Source: Moesziomyces globuligerus (taxonomy: Eukaryota > Basidiomycota > Ustilaginomycetes > Ustilaginales > Ustilaginaceae). Taken from it: a stretch of 64,000 nt of DNA. Below are positions 1 through 19,258 of the stretch, in pieces. Below the pieces are notes generated by a model. That model saw only the letters and a list, made by a program, of their open reading frames with translations, searched no databases and had not been told where the DNA came from. The stretch covers positions 124,001 through 188,000 of the forward strand of contig JARVLF010000021.1 of assembly GCA_030849465.1 (NCBI GenBank). Reading direction: 5' to 3'. Position numbers and translations under genes: made by a program. How positions within the stretch are numbered: position 1 is the stretch's first letter; every line of letters starts with the position of its first letter.

Positions 1-1697
1 GCAGCGCAATCGGGACGGGCGTGGGCTCTAGCGAGTCTTTCTCACGAGACTCGCCCAGCCTGTCAGCAAGCTACCAGGCTCTGTCGATAGCGGAGGAGAA
101 CGGGGTATCAGCATCCGCCACTGCTGCGCTGGGGACCGGCACGTCCGCATCTTCCAATCGGGCCGGACGAGCGCCATCTGTGGCTGAAAGCCTGACGAGC
201 CAGGCCTCCTCGTCTTCGCTGCGCTCCAATTACCTCAGTGCAGCCGAGCAGGCGCAGGCGATCCTGAACCACGACGCGCCGTATGCTTTGGATGGCCCGG
301 GCGGAACGAGCACATCTCTGGCCGCACAGCTGGCGGCGTACGGCGAAGCGCTGGCGCTCGAGAGAAAGCGAGCGGGTGACGCGCGCTCGGGACCTTCGCC
401 AAGTCTGAGCACGAGGGGAAGCAACGCAGCGCTACGGTCCAAGCTGCCGAGCGTGAGCGAGGACCAGTCGCCGTCACGCTCGGCGAGTCACAGTTCCAAC
501 GGCTTTGCGGTGGGTGAAGCGAGGACACCCAACTACCCGGCCACGGCGGCGCAGTCGTACAACCGGCGCGTGTCGCGTCGACCGCACAGCAGCGAGGGCC
601 GTCAGTCGCAGGAAACTGCGCAACGCAGCGTACCTGGACCCGTCCAGAGAACGGCCGAGCGCAGTTTTCCGCTGACCAGCCGCGGGCAGGATGGCGAGGC
701 ATCGCAGAGGGGCACGTGGCAACAGTCGGCCATGCTCGAACCGCACGGCCCGGGTGGTGACAGGCAGCCGGGCGTCTCGCCGAAGCTGGCGGGGGCAAGC
801 GGATTGGGCTCGCCGATGCACACGTCGCACGGCTGGACTTCCCACGAAGCGGCCAGCGAATCGCCAGCAGCACGTCAGGACTCGCGCGACGTTGCGCCCG
901 CCGTACCGCCAAAGGACCAGCGACGACGTCGACACGAGCCCGTCGTGCTGCACGGTGGCATTGAAGCGCTGCGTACCAAGCCGGATCCGGTGATGGATGC
1001 GGATGATCTGGACGAGGACGATCCGAAAACGCCCGTGCTCGGCGGCAACCGAAGCGTGCTGGACAAGTTTGCCACGTCGCCGCGGAGCCTGCATCGACAC
1101 AGCCCATCGATGCCGACGGAGCTGAGCTCATATGCAGCTGCTCGGCGCGAGCGCTCGCCGGCGGTGCTGTTGGGCGACAGCGGGAGCAGCACAGCGAGCT
1201 CGACGCCGCCGGTGCCGCCGCCGCGCAAGGAGTCGATCCATTCGAGCGAGCTGGGTGAGCTCGGCTCGCTCGGGCTGGAAGAGCCGTCTACGGCGACTGA
1301 GCGGCGGATGCTGACGCCGGACTCGGCGAGCTGGACCTCGCTGCGCAGTGGTGGTGAGGGCTATGAGGAAGGAGGCCGCGACAAGGGCGGGGGAGGAGGA
1401 GGAGGAGGAGGAGGAGGAGGAGGAGGAGGATCACTGGCGAGTCGGTGGGAGGGACTGCGGCGGCCGAGTCTCAATATGCTGCGCAGCGCCACGTCGTCGT
1501 CGCAGGCCTCGCAGACGCCGAGCCATGCGTCGTCTGGCGGGGCGGACGAGTACGGACACAGCCGCTGGTCGACCGACGAGACCGCAGCCGCGCGGGCCGA
1601 AGCGTTGGGCGGCGGAGGAGCGCAGCCAGCCGCGGGCAGCGGCAAGCGGCGGCTGGTGCGCACGCTGATCAATAAGGCGAAAGGCGCAGCCTCGTAG
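1..1697 (+). CDS. Ser-rich low-complexity protein, C-terminal part (5' truncated)
   Basis: The frame is already open at the left edge of the window and ends at TAG 1695-1697, so this is the C-terminal part (about 565 residues) of a longer protein. No ATG near the edge needs to be the start. The visible part is Ser/Ala/Gly/Arg-rich and looks disordered. It has proline-rich stretches of the SH3-ligand type (for example PPVPPPRK near 1205-1230), an acidic DADDLDEDD patch near 1000-1020, and a run of about 15 glycines encoded by a GGA repeat at about 1387-1430. It ends with a basic helix-like tail (RRLVRTLINKAKG). I do not recognise a catalytic domain. The SH3-ligand-like motifs and Ser density would suit a signalling or cytoskeletal scaffold, but this is inference only. 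Confidence 0.75.
   Translation, partial: SAIGTGVGSSESFSRDSPSLSASYQALSIAEENGVSASATAALGTGTSASSNRAGRAPSVAESLTSQASSSSLRSNYLSAAEQAQAILNHDAPYALDGPGGTSTSLAAQLAAYGEALALERKRAGDARSGPSPSLSTRGSNAALRSKLPSVSEDQSPSRSASHSSNGFAVGEARTPNYPATAAQSYNRRVSRRPHSSEGRQSQETAQRSVPGPVQRTAERSFPLTSRGQDGEASQRGTWQQSAMLEPHGPGGDRQPGVSPKLAGASGLGSPMHTSHGWTSHEAASESPAARQDSRDVAPAVPPKDQRRRRHEPVVLHGGIEALRTKPDPVMDADDLDEDDPKTPVLGGNRSVLDKFATSPRSLHRHSPSMPTELSSYAAARRERSPAVLLGDSGSSTASSTPPVPPPRKESIHSSELGELGSLGLEEPSTATERRMLTPDSASWTSLRSGGEGYEEGGRDKGGGGGGGGGGGGGGGSLASRWEGLRRPSLNMLRSATSSSQASQTPSHASSGGADEYGHSRWSTDETAAARAEALGGGGAQPAAGSGKRRLVRTLINKAKGAAS
1387..1431. repeat. (GGA)n trinucleotide tract
   Basis: A near-perfect GGA repeat of about 13-14 copies inside the Ser-rich gene, encoding polyglycine. 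Such in-frame triplet tracts are likely length-polymorphic between strains. Confidence 0.9.
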
Positions 1698-11713: not shown

Positions 11714-12950
11714 GTTGAATGTGTTGAACGTGTGTGTGTGCGGAAGGATGGTGGTGGCGGGAGAGGTAGGGTGGAAAAGCGAGGGGTGTTATACTGTACT
11801 CGGTCTGGCGAGGATGGGCGTAGGCGGGGCTTGGCATGGAGGGGCCGGGGTGCTGACGGCAGCTTGCCGAGATGCGGCTGAGCGGCAGTCTGAGTGACAG
11901 TGACAGTGGCAAAAGGCCGGGTCGACCCCGCCCATCCGCCAAAGTGGAGGCCAGACCACCGCAGGCGAGCCATGTGGCGCTGCGTCACACTGCCGCACAG
12001 GCACAGCCTTGGTATTTTTATATGCCATGTTACGCCATTAGCTTGCACAGTCGTGTCTTTTTTGCACATTTGATGTTAGAGCTCATCTTCTTGGTGATGG
12101 ATTCAACGCGTGCAAGTAGCCGAAAGTGGCATGGCTCAAGGCAAAGTGCGGCCGAATATTCGCAGCCTGGGCTGGCTGGAAGTGGCGCCGAAATAGCCGC
12201 GCTTTGCAACTGAGGCCTGGCATGACTGATACCAATCAGCAGCACAAACTCATGGGCTCTTGCGCTCTTGCGCTCTTGCGCTCTTGTTGGTCGATGCAAG
12301 CCGGTCGTGAGCGCAACGGATGAGATCCGATGCCATTTGCTCATTTGCTCAGGCAAAAGTGCGGTTCGGATGCCGTCCGCGCACCAGGAAGCGTTTGGTG
12401 CAAGAAGGCTCAGCCCGGCGAATAAAGTGAGAAAGCGGAGACGGAGCTCGATTCCCCCTCCACTGCTTTTCTCATCCAAAACCCCAACGCTCAAGCCAGC
12501 CAGTCAAGTCGCTCCTCCTGCCTCACATCAAGTCGCACTCCAAAGGTAAGTGCCACTTGGAGTCGGCCAGCGCCAGACTCCGGCGCCTTGACCTGCCTGA
12601 GCTTCGGAAATGCGAGTTCCGAAGCCGCACAGCGTCAGGCTCGGCTGTCGAAAACGACGACGCGCGCTGCAGCTGCACCCTGAGCTTGCAGCTTGGAACT
12701 CGGAGCTTGGAGCTGGCGGCGCTTTTTTCCATTCAGCAGCGCGTCCGCCCGCCCAAGCCAAGTCAAGCCGCTAAGTGGAACGGCAAAGCGGCTCGGCTCA
12801 TCCGTCGGGCTGAGCGGTTGCTCACATTTCGAAGCCGTCGACTGATCCAAATCCCATTCCACCCTCTCTGCCTTGCCTCCTGCTCACCACCTCGACCGCT
12901 TGCGCTGACCAACAACAGCCGTCGCCCTCGAGTTGTAGACACACACCATC
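11714..12950. promoter_or_regulatory. Divergent intergenic region with likely 5' UTR intron
   Basis: About 1.2 kb between the WW gene (minus) and the kynureninase fusion gene (plus). A TATTTTTATATG stretch near 12011 may be a TATA-like element. A strong donor AAG|GTAAGT lies at 12546 with acceptor candidates at about 12919 (AACAACAG) and 12936 (TTGTAG), so the kynureninase transcript probably has a ~370-390-bp leader intron. Inside it is a 9-bp perfect hairpin (12601-12609 with 12617-12625). A four-copy 8-bp repeat lies at 12256-12287. Confidence 0.5.
12256..12287. repeat. 8-bp tandem repeat, four copies
   Basis: Unit GCTCTTGC repeated three times exactly plus one near copy in the promoter region of the kynureninase fusion gene. 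Confidence 0.85.
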
Positions 12951-15900
12951 ATGACTTCCGCAACCACCGACGCCGCCGCGGCTCAGGCGGCCGAAAAGCA
13001 GCTCCAGTCCTCGCTCCTCCGCATCGCCATCATCTGCGCCTCGTCCATCCAGTCGCTCCGCGAACCCGTACAGCCCACCATCCTTCCCTCAGACTCCGCT
13101 TCCACCTCAGCTCTGCCATCGGCACACAAGCTCTCGGCACAGATCGTCTCGGACCTCGCTCAACTCCTCACCCTCGTCCAGAAGCACTCCACCAACCTCG
13201 CTCTCGCACTCAAACCCAGCGCAAAGCCCGCCCCTCCCTCCACCGACACCGCCGCCATCTCCCCCGTCTCGGGCCTCGACGTAAAGTCACTCGAGGCCGC
13301 ACAGGCACAGATCCTCGCGCTCGGCAACGACCTCCTCCCCAAGATCGTCTTCCTCGCAAAGAAGGCCTGGAAGGACCGCGAAGTGTTCCAGCACCGCCCC
13401 AAGCACGACCAAAACGACCCAGCGCAGGTCGAACAGAGGCGCAAGCTCGAACAACTCGCAAACGAAATGGGTGGTCAGATCATGTCGGCGGACCAGCTCG
13501 GCGTGCCACCCTCCGAGCGCGACGACCTCGAAAAGAAGCTCCACTTTTCGCTCGGCAACTCATTTGCCCGCGAGATCCGCTCCGCGGTCGAAGACGTGCT
13601 CGGATCCATCGCAGACCTCCTCCACTCGCTTCTCGATGATCGCGCAAAGAAGGCTCTCGATCACGCCTCACAGGCTCGCGACCGCGCAGATGGCCTCCTC
13701 GCCGGTGTCAGCAAGAAGCTCGACTCGCTCTCCCTTTCCTCCCGCGACCCCGCCGAGCTCCGCAAGCGCACCCTCGCCGCAAACAACCTCGTCTGGGAGA
13801 CGTGCGCCAAGTACATCGGCGAGAGCCACGCAGACGGCTCCCCACGCACCGTCACTTCGGTCGCGCCCAACGGCGTTCGAACAAAGGTCCTCGTAAAAGG
13901 CCTCAGCAAGTCCAACCTCGAGGCGTGCAAACGCTCCTGGAACAACCGCGTCGAACTCATGCGCGACGGTCTCGACGAACTCAAGCAGGGCATCGAGGCC
14001 GATCCCTCCTCCAACGGCCTCGACGCTGCCGACGGCGACGACGAGTTCGCCTTCCCAGAGGCTACGCCCCTCTCGCCAGAGCAGAAGGACCGCCTGCGCC
14101 AGCTCTCCAATCTCGTCAAGATCGGCAACCTCACGCACGAGAACATCCTCAAGCAGCTCGTCAAGGCCGATGCCGCCCTCATCGACCTCGACGAGGTCGA
14201 GGAGCTGGGCAAGCACCTCGAGGAGGCCCAGGACGAGCTCGTCGCCGCCTGCCTCTACGGTGAGGCCGACGCCGGACTCGAGGCGCACATGTTTGACCAC
14301 GATGCCCAGGATGACGCCGACCTCCCCAACGGCAACGCGCATCAGCACGACGCCGATGCCGACGCCGACCTGACCGAGGAGCAGGCCATCGAGAAGGCTA
14401 TCGTCCGCACCCTCGAGCAGTACATCCAGGCCATCGTCTCGCTCTCGGCCTACGTCACCGACCGCGACGAGCTGGTGGACAAGGTGCACATCGCCTGCGC
14501 CACCGACGAGCACGGCGACTTTGCGCACGTCTTTGCCGCAAAGTTCTCCCAGCTCTCCAAGGTGCTCACCGAGGCCAGCTCCGACATTGTCCTTCGCTCC
14601 TCTTCCGCTTCGGCTTCAGCTCCAAAGCAGACGCTCGCCAAGCACTCACCCACAAAGCAGACCAACGACTCGTTCGACACACAGGTCTTCCTCAAGGAGC
14701 TCGAGTCCATCGCCGCTAAGCTCGGCAACGGCGCCAAGATCACCGACCGCGCGATCGCCGACCAGCTCGACAGCGCCGACCCGCTGCGCCCCATGCGCGA
14801 CGGCTACATCTTGCCGACGTTCAAGGACGTCTGCAGTCCGGACTACAACTCTACGTCGGCCGAGACCGCGCCCGACGCCGAGTCGCTCTACATGTGCGGC
14901 AACTCGCTCGGCCCGCTCTCGCGCCTCACCAAGCGCTACCTCGAGCAGGAGATCGAAGCCTGGGGCCGCAAGGCGGTGCTCGGCCACTTTGAGCATCCCT
15001 ACGGCACCCCCTGGACGCAGATGGAGAAGCGCGTCGGCGAGCTCTGCGCCAACATGGTCGGCGCCATGCCTGCCGAGGTCGTCGTCATGGGCACGCTCAC
15101 CGGCAACCTGCACTCGCTCCTCGCCACGTTCTATCGCCCCGCGACCAAGCCTTTCGGCGTCGACTTTACCGGCGACGTAGAGCAGGCCAAGCAGGAGGGC
15201 AAGAAGGTGAGGCACAAGATCATCTTTGAGCAGAAGGCGTTCCCCTCGGACCAGTACGCGCTGGCTTCGGTGGTGGAGCTCAACGGCTTCCAGCCCGAGA
15301 CGTCGCTCGTGCCGCTGGTCCCGAGGCAAGGGAGCAAGACGCTCCAGACGGCCGACATCCTCGAGGTGATCGAGAGGTGCGGCAAGGAGGGCGAGACGGC
15401 CATCGTGCTCATCGGCGGCATCCAGTACTTCACCGGCCAGCTGTTTGAGCTCGAGAAGCTGGCGGCCAAGGCGCACGAGTACGGCATCCTGTTCGGCGTC
15501 GACCTGGCGCATGCGTTTGCCAACGTGCCGCTGGCGCTGCACGACTGGGGCATCGACTTTGCCTGCTGGTGCACGTACAAGTACGGCTCCTCGGGACCGG
15601 GCGGCATCGCGGGCGTGTTTGTGCACGAGCGCTGGCACGAGGGCGTCGGCGGCGAGCACGGCCTCACGCGGCAGGCGGGCTGGTGGGGCCACGAGAAGGA
15701 GACGCGCTTCTCGATGCCGGACAAGTTTGTGCCCACGCGCGGCGCCGAGGGCTGGCAGGTCTCCAACCCGTCGATGCTCGACATGGCCGCGCTCAAGGGC
15801 AGTCTCGAGACGCTGGCTCAGGCCACGCAGTACGGGGAGCGCAGCGCGGCCGACGAGGCTAGCGGAGAGGGCAAGGTGGGCAGGGGCAGCGTGATGCCGA

Positions 15901-16334
15901 TCCTGCGCAGCAAGAGCCTGCGCCTGACGGCGTATCTGGAGGCGCTGCTGCTCGAGCCCGGCTTCTTCCCAGACGGATTCGACATCCGCGTCGTCACGCC
16001 CAGAGATCCGACCCAGCGTGGCAGCCAGCTGTGCATCCAGATCCCCGACCCGCCCGCTGCGCTCGAGAAGCGGAAGCGCGAAGAGGAGGAGCAGAAGCAG
16101 CACGCCAAGAGCAACGGCAAGGACGTGCCGCCTCCCATCGACGGAAAGCGCCTCATCGCGAGGGCGCACAAGCGCGCCGAGAAACAGCGCGGCCTCGTCG
16201 CCGACATCCGCGCGCCGGACATGCTCAGGCTCGCCCCGCTCGCCCAGTTCTCGACCTACACCGACGTGTGGAGGACCGCAGACGTGCTCCGACAGAGCCT
16301 ACTCGAGGAGGTCAAGCTCGATCAGTCGGCTTGA
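12951..16334 (+). CDS. CCNDBP1/GCIP-like domain fused to kynureninase
   Basis: One uninterrupted frame of 1127 residues. Residues ~1-540 match the GCIP/cyclin-D1-binding-protein-1 pattern: a helical first half, then LVWETC, a helix block (NRVELMRDGLDELKQGIE), an acidic loop, and DLDEVEELGKHLEEAQDEL followed by a second acidic loop. After a Ser-rich linker (~540-575), residues ~580-1127 are a full kynureninase: DSADPLRPMRDGYILPTFK, LYMCGNSLG, PLP lysine Lys877 in TYKYGSSGPGGIAG, and a C-terminal small domain with a charged insert. Kynureninase converts kynurenine or 3-hydroxykynurenine to anthranilate or 3-hydroxyanthranilate (tryptophan to NAD route). No stop or splice sites separate the parts. 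The first Met in the kynureninase part (Met615) already lies within its conserved N-terminus. The kynureninase part corresponds to yeast BNA5. Confidence 0.93.
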   Translation: MTSATTDAAAAQAAEKQLQSSLLRIAIICASSIQSLREPVQPTILPSDSASTSALPSAHKLSAQIVSDLAQLLTLVQKHSTNLALALKPSAKPAPPSTDTAAISPVSGLDVKSLEAAQAQILALGNDLLPKIVFLAKKAWKDREVFQHRPKHDQNDPAQVEQRRKLEQLANEMGGQIMSADQLGVPPSERDDLEKKLHFSLGNSFAREIRSAVEDVLGSIADLLHSLLDDRAKKALDHASQARDRADGLLAGVSKKLDSLSLSSRDPAELRKRTLAANNLVWETCAKYIGESHADGSPRTVTSVAPNGVRTKVLVKGLSKSNLEACKRSWNNRVELMRDGLDELKQGIEADPSSNGLDAADGDDEFAFPEATPLSPEQKDRLRQLSNLVKIGNLTHENILKQLVKADAALIDLDEVEELGKHLEEAQDELVAACLYGEADAGLEAHMFDHDAQDDADLPNGNAHQHDADADADLTEEQAIEKAIVRTLEQYIQAIVSLSAYVTDRDELVDKVHIACATDEHGDFAHVFAAKFSQLSKVLTEASSDIVLRSSSASASAPKQTLAKHSPTKQTNDSFDTQVFLKELESIAAKLGNGAKITDRAIADQLDSADPLRPMRDGYILPTFKDVCSPDYNSTSAETAPDAESLYMCGNSLGPLSRLTKRYLEQEIEAWGRKAVLGHFEHPYGTPWTQMEKRVGELCANMVGAMPAEVVVMGTLTGNLHSLLATFYRPATKPFGVDFTGDVEQAKQEGKKVRHKIIFEQKAFPSDQYALASVVELNGFQPETSLVPLVPRQGSKTLQTADILEVIERCGKEGETAIVLIGGIQYFTGQLFELEKLAAKAHEYGILFGVDLAHAFANVPLALHDWGIDFACWCTYKYGSSGPGGIAGVFVHERWHEGVGGEHGLTRQAGWWGHEKETRFSMPDKFVPTRGAEGWQVSNPSMLDMAALKGSLETLAQATQYGERSAADEASGEGKVGRGSVMPILRSKSLRLTAYLEALLLEPGFFPDGFDIRVVTPRDPTQRGSQLCIQIPDPPAALEKRKREEEEQKQHAKSNGKDVPPPIDGKRLIARAHKRAEKQRGLVADIRAPDMLRLAPLAQFSTYTDVWRTADVLRQSLLEEVKLDQSA

Positions 16335-16648: not shown

Positions 16649-19258
16649 ATGGCGACTCTACCGTCTGCGCCTGCTTCGGCTCGAGCGTCGGCGACTGCGG
16701 CGACTTCGGGAAGGCAGGATGCGGTGCCACGCTTTGGGGCGTGGTGGCACATCATGCGTTCGATCGGCGACATGTCGTTGCCGCTCTTCTTCTCGTCGAT
16801 CCACATCGGCGGCGCCTCGAACGTCCCGTCGCCTACGACGCCGCTGATCGTATGCAGCAACCACAGCAACACGATCCTCGACGTTGCGGTGCTCTCGTCG
16901 CACTTCCCGCACCGACGACCGCTGCACTTCTGGGCCAAGGCGGGCTTCTTCAAGTCGCCGCTCACGCGCTGGATCCTCACCTCGGCCGGCAACATCAAGG
17001 TCGACCGACGCAGCAAGAACAACCAGACGCTCTTCCAGGGCACCTTTCGCGCCATGCGCGCCGGTGGAGCCATCGCACTCTTCCCCGAAGGCGGCAGCTA
17101 CACCATCCCCTACCTCGCCACGCTCAAGATGGGCGCCGCCTGGGCAGCGTTGGAGTACGCGCGGTACTTGGAGCTCGAGACTGGAGAGGGCAAACAGCGG
17201 ACGCAGGTCGAGATCCTACCGACAGCAGTGGTGTTTGACGACAAGAGCGTCTTTCGATCCCGGGCGATGCTGAGGTTCGGTAGACCGATTCGACTCGATG
17301 CGTATATCGACGAGTTCCTCTCCGCTCCCGCACCGTCCGACGACGCGGCAAAGGCAGGGAGGGAGGACGGTACGGTACCCGCAACACCGGAGAGCATGAC
17401 GAGGTCGAATACGAGCACAGAGACGCGCCACACTCCCGCCGGCGTCGAGAGCTACGCAAGCCCGGCGCATCGCGCCGTGGCGAGGTTGACCGCCGACCTG
17501 CAGCGCGCCATCGAGGCGCTGACGTTCAACGCGCCCGATTGGACCACGTTCCAGGCGGTGCGCGCTGCGCGCGAGATGATGTTCGAGCTCGACCCGACGA
17601 CGGATGGGATGGAGGCGATGCACGAGGGCATCGACGAGTACGTCGACGTCTCGCGACACATCATGGCGCTGCTGACCGAGCAGTCCCAGGCGAGCACCGC
17701 AGCACGCCAGGCGCTCTTTGTCTACTCGTGCATGCTGCATCTGTGCGATGTGGATGACCTTACGCTTGCGCGTGTGCTGCGTCGTTCCTCCGGGACCGGC
17801 TACACGCGGGCGTTCTGGTCGGTGGTGAGGGCGGTGGCGATCCGACTACCCCTGTACGTGCCCGTGTTTGGGCCTACGTTGGTGCCGATGTACGTGGCGC
17901 CGAATGCGATCGCGCATCACTTTGCCCGTCGCGAGGAGGAGTCGCTCTCGAGCGTCAAGACGCTCGTCGGCTTTGTGCTTACCTCGGCGCTGTATGCGAC
18001 GCTGGTGCTCAAGACGCTGCAGTGGACGCGCTGGTCTCCTCCGGGTCTGCTCGTCGGCGTCGCCGCCGTCTGGTGGCTCCACGACCTCAACCGCTCCAAC
18101 ATCGACACGGCCTACTCGCTGCTCAAGCAGCTCCGACTCAGTTGGCGCCTGCACCGCGCAGCCAGCTCGGCGGGCTTGAAGCCCGCAGAGCGGTCAGCGG
18201 CAACCGAGGGACGTGCGATGTTCTTCTACGGTACGCTGGTGCATCCTCGGATCTTGGCACGCGTGATTGGGAGTGCGGGAGCGCACGTGCGCGTGCAGAA
18301 TGCCGTGCTCGACGGTGCGACACTCTACCACGTCCGCGGCGAGGAGTATCCTGGCCTGCTCCGAACGCCGTCGTCTGCGGGCGAGAGGAGGGCGGTTAAG
18401 GGGACGCTAGTCACGGGCTTGACGGACGCGGATGTGCGGTGTCTGGATGTGTTTGAGGGCGACGAGTACACGCGTGTGCGTGTGCGCGTCATCCCAGATG
18501 CAGAGGCGGACGTGGAATGCAACGACCGACGTATGGAAAAGGCAGGTACGGCACCGCTTGACGAGGTGCTCAACACGCTTACGCGCGAGCGGATCGAGGA
18601 GCTGTGTCGAACAGGAAGCGAGGTGGATGGGGTCGAGGTATATGCATGGAGTGCAGGCAGCGAGAAGCTCACAGACGCCGTGTGGGAGTTTGACGTCTTT
18701 GCGCGCGACAAGGCGGCGAGCTGGATCGGCGAGGCGGGCGAGGCGGAGCACGAACACGAGTACCAGCTCGTCGACAAGGTGCACGCCAGCATCACCACCA
18801 CCTCGATCACCTCCCAGCCGGGCGAGCGCACCAAGTCCAGCCAAGACAGCAACGGCAGCAGAGGTGGCGAGGATGGTGGTGGTGAGGTGTGGGAGAGTGT
18901 GGTGGGGAGGTTGACGGATGACGAGCGGGTGGGCGGTGCGATTGTGCGCGTGTGCAGGCAGCTTGGCCAGAAGCCGAGTATCCAGTTCTTCGTCGATCGT
19001 GCGTTCGACCGCGAGCACAAGCGACCGCTTGGCTCCGATCCGCAGCTGCTCTCGGCCCTCGTCTCTGCTCGCTCGCACGCCCGCACCGCGCTCGAAACAC
19101 TCATCTCGTCCCACCCCGACCACGAGGCCATCACCCACCTCGTCGCAGCCAAAACCCGCTCGCTTCGCACACACCACCACCCCATCACGCCCCAATGGCC
19201 CTTCCCGGCCACCCACTTTAACTCACCACCCACAACCGAGTCAAAGAAATCCGTCTAA
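16649..19258 (+). CDS. Glycerol-3-phosphate acyltransferase fused to AIG2-like domain
   Basis: Single exon, 869 residues. Residues ~40-270 are a PlsC acyltransferase: motif I NHSNTILD with His72 and Asp77, motif II GNIKVDR, motif III FPEGGSY (~145) and motif IV ILPTAVVF. This is the Gat1/Gat2 (SCT1/GPT2) type, which makes lysophosphatidic acid at the ER. Membrane segments lie around 390-415 and 430-475. From Met524 a second module starts, MFFYGTLVHPRIL...FEGDEYTRV, with the YGTL substrate loop and FEGDEY glutamate of the AIG2/gamma-glutamylcyclotransferase-like fold (~524-715). A further ~150-residue tail (GRLTDDERVGGAIVRV...) is unassigned. The join is seamless in frame. Each module is recognisable; the activity of the AIG2-like part is unknown. 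Confidence 0.88.
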   Translation: MATLPSAPASARASATAATSGRQDAVPRFGAWWHIMRSIGDMSLPLFFSSIHIGGASNVPSPTTPLIVCSNHSNTILDVAVLSSHFPHRRPLHFWAKAGFFKSPLTRWILTSAGNIKVDRRSKNNQTLFQGTFRAMRAGGAIALFPEGGSYTIPYLATLKMGAAWAALEYARYLELETGEGKQRTQVEILPTAVVFDDKSVFRSRAMLRFGRPIRLDAYIDEFLSAPAPSDDAAKAGREDGTVPATPESMTRSNTSTETRHTPAGVESYASPAHRAVARLTADLQRAIEALTFNAPDWTTFQAVRAAREMMFELDPTTDGMEAMHEGIDEYVDVSRHIMALLTEQSQASTAARQALFVYSCMLHLCDVDDLTLARVLRRSSGTGYTRAFWSVVRAVAIRLPLYVPVFGPTLVPMYVAPNAIAHHFARREEESLSSVKTLVGFVLTSALYATLVLKTLQWTRWSPPGLLVGVAAVWWLHDLNRSNIDTAYSLLKQLRLSWRLHRAASSAGLKPAERSAATEGRAMFFYGTLVHPRILARVIGSAGAHVRVQNAVLDGATLYHVRGEEYPGLLRTPSSAGERRAVKGTLVTGLTDADVRCLDVFEGDEYTRVRVRVIPDAEADVECNDRRMEKAGTAPLDEVLNTLTRERIEELCRTGSEVDGVEVYAWSAGSEKLTDAVWEFDVFARDKAASWIGEAGEAEHEHEYQLVDKVHASITTTSITSQPGERTKSSQDSNGSRGGEDGGGEVWESVVGRLTDDERVGGAIVRVCRQLGQKPSIQFFVDRAFDREHKRPLGSDPQLLSALVSARSHARTALETLISSHPDHEAITHLVAAKTRSLRTHHHPITPQWPFPATHFNSPPTTESKKSV

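Follow-up and report, generated by a model that had tools for sequence, protein, structure and literature searches.

A probable fusion of a distant GCIP-like domain to kynureninase in Moesziomyces globuligerus and other Ustilaginomycetes

Kynureninases act as dimers and contribute to the synthesis of nicotinamide adenine dinucleotide (NAD) from tryptophan; the yeast enzyme is Bna5. Human GCIP is described as a putative tumour suppressor and a transcriptional regulator (PMC4148118, PMC11930424). A description of a protein that combines GCIP and kynureninase was not found among the papers listed in searches of the open-access literature, most subscription journals being outside that scope. The evolution of the kynurenine pathway in eukaryotes has been treated (PMC4217691), and the main text of that article does not contain the terms "fused", "Ustilago" or "Basidiomyc". 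In this study, we analyzed a 64,000-nucleotide stretch of the Moesziomyces globuligerus genome (hereafter the window; contig JARVLF010000021.1, positions 124,001 to 188,000), in which one open reading frame (ORF) carries both parts. We consider it probable that the ORF encodes a single ~123-kDa polypeptide, composed of a GCIP/CCNDBP1-like helical bundle, a flexible Ser/Thr-rich linker and a complete kynureninase dependent on pyridoxal phosphate (PLP). The continuous frame, the identities of both domains (distant in the case of GCIP), the conserved active-site residues, the presence of the architecture in three orders and the failure to detect a second kynureninase were all computed directly. 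The features in the window are as follows.

12951..16334, + strand: single ORF, GCIP-like half, linker and kynureninase (1127 aa and a TGA stop)
12951..14579, + strand: GCIP/CCNDBP1-like half, residues 1-543, mostly helices
13893..13994, + strand: best-scoring stretch for Pfam GCIP_N, residues 315-348
14580..14675, + strand: Ser/Thr-rich linker, residues 544-575, containing no Met
14676..16331, + strand: kynureninase half, residues 576-1127 (TIGR01814, Pfam, human 3e9k)
14793..14795, + strand: M615, the first Met codon past M447; a start there would lose about 40 N-terminal residues of the kynureninase
15579..15581, + strand: K877, the PLP lysine (human K276), Lys in 19 of 19 alignment rows
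16176..16289, + strand: best-scoring KYNU_C stretch, residues 1076-1113, including R1093 (human R434)

The ATG of the ORF lies in the context CATCATGAC and is preceded by an in-frame TAG at 12936; the computed mass of the product is 122.8 kDa. When the genome itself (18.5 Mb in 24 contigs, the window being G000:C21:124001-188000) was searched with the protein, the ORF was recovered at G000:C21:136951-140331 with no internal stops. An earlier, sequence-only reading had reported one stop-free frame of 1127 codons here, and this was confirmed. The GC content at codon position 3 was 0.84 for residues 1-543, 0.69 for the 32 linker codons and 0.92 for residues 576-1127, and both halves look coding because of these high values. 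In a null model for ORF length, built from 300 first-order Markov sequences, each 64 kb long and with the dinucleotides of the ORF, the longest run without a stop had a mean of 565 codons and a maximum of 1116. ORF length was therefore rejected as proof of fusion, since a stop-poor composition yields long open frames by chance, and the claim is carried by homology and by an architecture common to other species. The kynureninase half also faces an antisense ORF of 507 aa (14646-16169, - strand), which GC-rich codon use poor in stops would be expected to produce.

The C-terminal half was readily assigned. NCBIfam TIGR01814 (kynureninase) matched residues 604-959 with 309.5 bits (cut-off 246.4), and Pfam KYNU_C and Aminotran_5 both exceeded their cut-offs. 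The alignment with human kynureninase (3e9k) had an E value of 3e-76 and began at residue 587. We mapped 16 positions of the human enzyme onto the window protein and onto the 19 rows of fused proteins in alignment A1. All 16 were invariant in the 19 rows and 14 were identical to human, the exceptions being S221 (G822) and S274 (T875). Human K276, H102, N333 and R434 correspond to K877, H679, N939 and R1093, respectively, which bears out the earlier proposal of an intact kynureninase with Lys877 as the PLP lysine. In the human enzyme, His102 and Asn333 are the determinants for 3-hydroxykynurenine. The match at H679 and N939 therefore suggests 3-hydroxykynurenine as the predicted substrate, and hence a role in NAD synthesis rather than in anthranilate formation.

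The N-terminal half is a more distant relative of its family. Pfam GCIP_N (PF13324; cut-off 27.5 bits) scored 27.0 bits with the whole protein, slightly below the cut-off, and 29.8 and 30.1 bits with residues 1-580 and 1-550 alone. GCIP_N was matched in 19 of 19 fused members at E up to 0.1, and is precomputed in the database for 9 of the 18 fused database proteins. GCIP_C (PF20936) was matched at the same threshold in 15 of the 19 (best E 0.00027), the window protein not being among them. A VIA-align superposition of the model of this half on the GCIP structure 3ay5 spanned both bundles (15..541) and 261 of the 298 residues of 3ay5, with a root-mean-square deviation (rmsd) of 6.2. No Foldseek match of the same model fell below E 0.23, and the 50 rows listed did not include 3ay5. 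The proposal of a GCIP-type first half thus stands as a distant relationship with weak scores, and residues 1-540 do fit the profile, the cut-off being passed only when the half is searched alone.

The whole protein was next compared with database proteins. Among 7996 candidates scored, 23 had E values up to 0.001: 18 full-length fusions, one fragment spanning the junction (P0016) and four with kynureninase alone (P0020-P0023). The 18 fused proteins share the full architecture and 46-82% identity with the window protein, so that the survey of other Ustilaginomycetes suggested by the sequence-only reading returned the same single-protein form. Ten of them are named and include proteins of Moesziomyces aphidis, Sporisorium, Ustilago, Kalmanozyma, Testicularia, Thecaphora frezii and Violaceomyces palustris. 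These span Ustilaginales, Urocystidales (Thecaphora) and Violaceomycetales (Violaceomyces), three orders of the class Ustilaginomycetes; the order was checked in the taxonomy for one species each. The nearest row in the tree described below was M. aphidis, with 84% identity in the alignment. Against Violaceomyces, the most distant, identity was 45% for residues 1-543, 16% for the linker and 57% for residues 576-1127; both halves are constrained. The joined form looks old and retained, judging from these comparisons, and not the accident of one genome. Accordingly, of the two readings offered earlier, "an accidental fusion fixed in this lineage" was too narrow. As a separate observation, the chytrid kynureninase P0081 (Gonapodya sp. 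JEL0774, 891 aa) is listed with the serine/threonine phosphatase domains PF00149 and PF16891, and is another apparent kynureninase fusion or a merged gene model.

The junction was variable in length and constant in frame. Between conserved anchors, the linker had 30 to 83 residues, with ten distinct lengths in 19 rows and the frame kept in every one, and its identity to that of the window protein was 16-55%. In 18 of 19 rows it contained no Met; the linker of Violaceomyces has two. In the window protein, 11 of the 32 linker residues are Ser or Thr, in agreement with the hinge proposed earlier. The claim that a start at Met615 would truncate the kynureninase also held, as no Met lies between M447 and M615. 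M447 falls within the GCIP half and M615 sits about 40 residues inside the kynureninase part, so that no AUG could initiate a complete kynureninase devoid of GCIP sequence.

The two halves were also searched separately. Among the best 120 of 7878 matches to the kynureninase half, no standalone copy exceeded 60% identity; the closest match was P0016 (84%), which also holds part of the GCIP half. The best standalone kynureninases were P0025 (Pseudozyma flocculosa) and P0026 (Thecaphora frezii), 60% and 58% identical, followed among the same 120 by those of Exobasidiomycetes and Malassezia. A profile of five GCIP-half sequences, used to search for standalone GCIP relatives, found two fragments only, namely P0016, which continues through kynureninase, and P0024 (467 aa), which stops within the GCIP half. 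Plasmid records, a set unsuited to a fungus, gave no tblastn match to the GCIP half.

We also searched the genome for other members of the pathway. Neither the protein search nor PF22580 detected a second kynureninase, only the window locus being found, whereas indoleamine 2,3-dioxygenase (IDO; two loci), 3-HAO and QRPTase, the other families searched, were present. Hence, the fused protein is probably the only kynureninase of the tryptophan-to-NAD route. As regards the GCIP half, the restriction of that protein search to the window locus favors a single copy, although a very divergent second GCIP could have escaped it; the GCIP Pfam profile was uninformative here, as it gave no match in the genome, missed the window copy and was silent in control genomes. 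One IDO locus was itself unusual. A 1043-aa frame (L006:445-3576, - strand, around G000:C20:512070-513692) carries IDO (PF01231) at residues 152-692 and, C-terminal to it, a 4'-phosphopantetheinyl transferase (PF22624 at 794-868 and PF01648 at 879-980). The transferase has no obvious start of its own, because no Met lies between residues 608 and 800, and here a second enzyme of the kynurenine pathway may be part of an unexpected fusion. The other locus (L007:982-3027, + strand; G000:C20:240318-241481) is a 681-aa ORF with a more distant IDO homolog (128.6 bits). In U. maydis, UMAG_03728 is listed as IDO-related (PMC10532341).

A mechanism can be proposed from these results. The two parts would have been joined a single time, close to the base of Ustilaginomycetes, and the C-terminal half would be the working 3-hydroxykynureninase of the cell in de novo NAD synthesis from tryptophan. 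The fused protein is expected to dimerize as its relatives do, and each enzyme would then bear two GCIP bundles, since kynureninases are dimers. The GCIP half may retain a protein-binding job of its own. Passive tethering of two halves that are each useful seems to us the likelier arrangement; direct regulation or placement of the enzyme by the GCIP half is a clearly weaker candidate, and the remaining probability goes to a separation of the halves after translation or at the transcript level. A fixed contact between the halves is disfavored because the linker varies freely. The AlphaFold model of the full-length protein (19 sequences) had a mean predicted local distance difference test (pLDDT) score of 54.6, too poor to judge how the halves pack; with this model, Foldseek gave 244 matches, of which the three under E 0.001 were all kynureninases.

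With regard to history, the alternative that survives best is that a standalone kynureninase is ancestral in Ustilaginomycetes, P0025 and P0026 then representing a paralog that predates the fusion instead of fused copies that lost GCIP. In a midpoint-rooted tree of 48 rows, the 19 fused and the two standalone rows formed one clade (99/95) with the standalone pair inside. The branch uniting this pair with the fused rows of Ustilaginales had a support of 91/88, and the next towards the root 82/34, values that leave room for the older paralog. Forcing the 19 fused rows together made the tree 24.2 log units worse (approximately unbiased test, p-AU 0.028; optimistic, because the group was chosen after the first tree); this comparison used 39 rows, nine that were long-branched or distant having been taken out. 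An older paralog is therefore possible but not favored. The simplest history on these trees would be one fusion near the base of the class, after which a duplicate lost its GCIP half.

Somewhat less likely still is a functional coupling, akin to the link of a cell-cycle scaffold to NAD or anthranilate metabolism offered in the sequence-only reading, in which the GCIP-like half localizes or regulates the kynureninase by binding a partner (cyclin, kinase or transcription factor), or allows kynurenine/NAD flux to report to growth control. The fused state in three orders, the conservation of both halves and the roles ascribed to human GCIP agree with it. The divergence and changing length of the linker, however, show that no fixed geometry is kept, and Thecaphora holds a standalone paralog beside its fused copy. 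We regard as doubtful the further idea that tryptophan-to-NAD catabolism in smuts is wired to a GCIP-type regulator, the sole kynureninase sitting permanently on a scaffold that senses or signals growth state and forming, with the IDO-phosphopantetheinyl transferase frame of the same genome, a pair of pathway enzymes each joined to an unrelated partner.

It is improbable that the N-terminal half is some other talin- or vinculin-like helical bundle rather than GCIP. Of the 50 VIA-align rows listed, 3ay5 alone covers both bundles and also aligns over most of its length, and 8vdr and 9hdd, which span the half as well, have rmsd values of 18.1 and 20.3; the GCIP_N and GCIP_C matches across the members point the same way.

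The least likely alternative is that a GCIP gene and a kynureninase gene were read as one, with an internal promoter or transcript end and an open frame that is a stop-poor by-product: 35 codons stay open in the Markov model with p ~0.63 and the Violaceomyces linker does have Mets, but the ten linker lengths all in frame, the 18 linkers without an AUG start for a complete GCIP-free kynureninase, the lack of a split pair among the matches listed in the GCIP-half and kynureninase-half searches and the absence of AATAAA, ATTAAA and TATAAA from the ORF (weak evidence in fungi) leave it little room. A fused query preferentially finds fused gene models, which lessens the value of finding no split pair; U. 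maydis was absent among the named matches, nor did these include a named fused protein of P. flocculosa. A promoter and terminator scan of 14400-14900, the models of which cover bacterial signals only, gave no match.

Downstream of the fusion, the next ORF (16649-19258, + strand, 869 aa) contains an acyltransferase domain (PF01553, 51-191) and a gamma-glutamylcyclotransferase/AIG2-like domain (PF06094, 524-620). Because residue 524, where the second domain starts, is Met, this ORF may hold two genes that share a frame, and not a fused one.

The fusion ORF is already annotated, as database names such as "related to kynureninase" show; the fusion completes this annotation where the N-terminal half of a protein is of another kind. 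It also ties the fungal GCIP family to a testable enzyme reporter. Thecaphora apparently has fused and separate copies and this genome apparently relies on the fused one, which offers a model for why fused genes persist, and Thecaphora is a natural comparison for the role of the GCIP half.

Compared with known kynureninases (EC 3.7.1.3; TIGR01814; human KYNU, 3e9k), the C-terminal half spans the enzyme from near its N-terminus through the C-terminal domain. The fusion protein differs from the human enzyme in an additional N-terminal domain of ~543 residues with the linker, and in inserted stretches at ~734-753 and between 1033 and 1078. The kynureninases of Exobasidiomycetes and Malassezia (Tilletia, Tilletiaria, Exobasidium, Meira and Malassezia) are the nearest outgroup of this half, with 42-53% identity, and unlike the smut fusion they have no GCIP domain in precomputed Pfam. 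P0025 and P0026 likewise have no GCIP domain by Pfam, yet are placed within the fused clade, and the two Thecaphora copies are 58% identical over their common part. Compared with GCIP/CCNDBP1/HHM (PF13324, PF20936; 3ay5), the N-terminal half is very divergent, with 12% identity in the structural alignment, and is attached to an enzyme.
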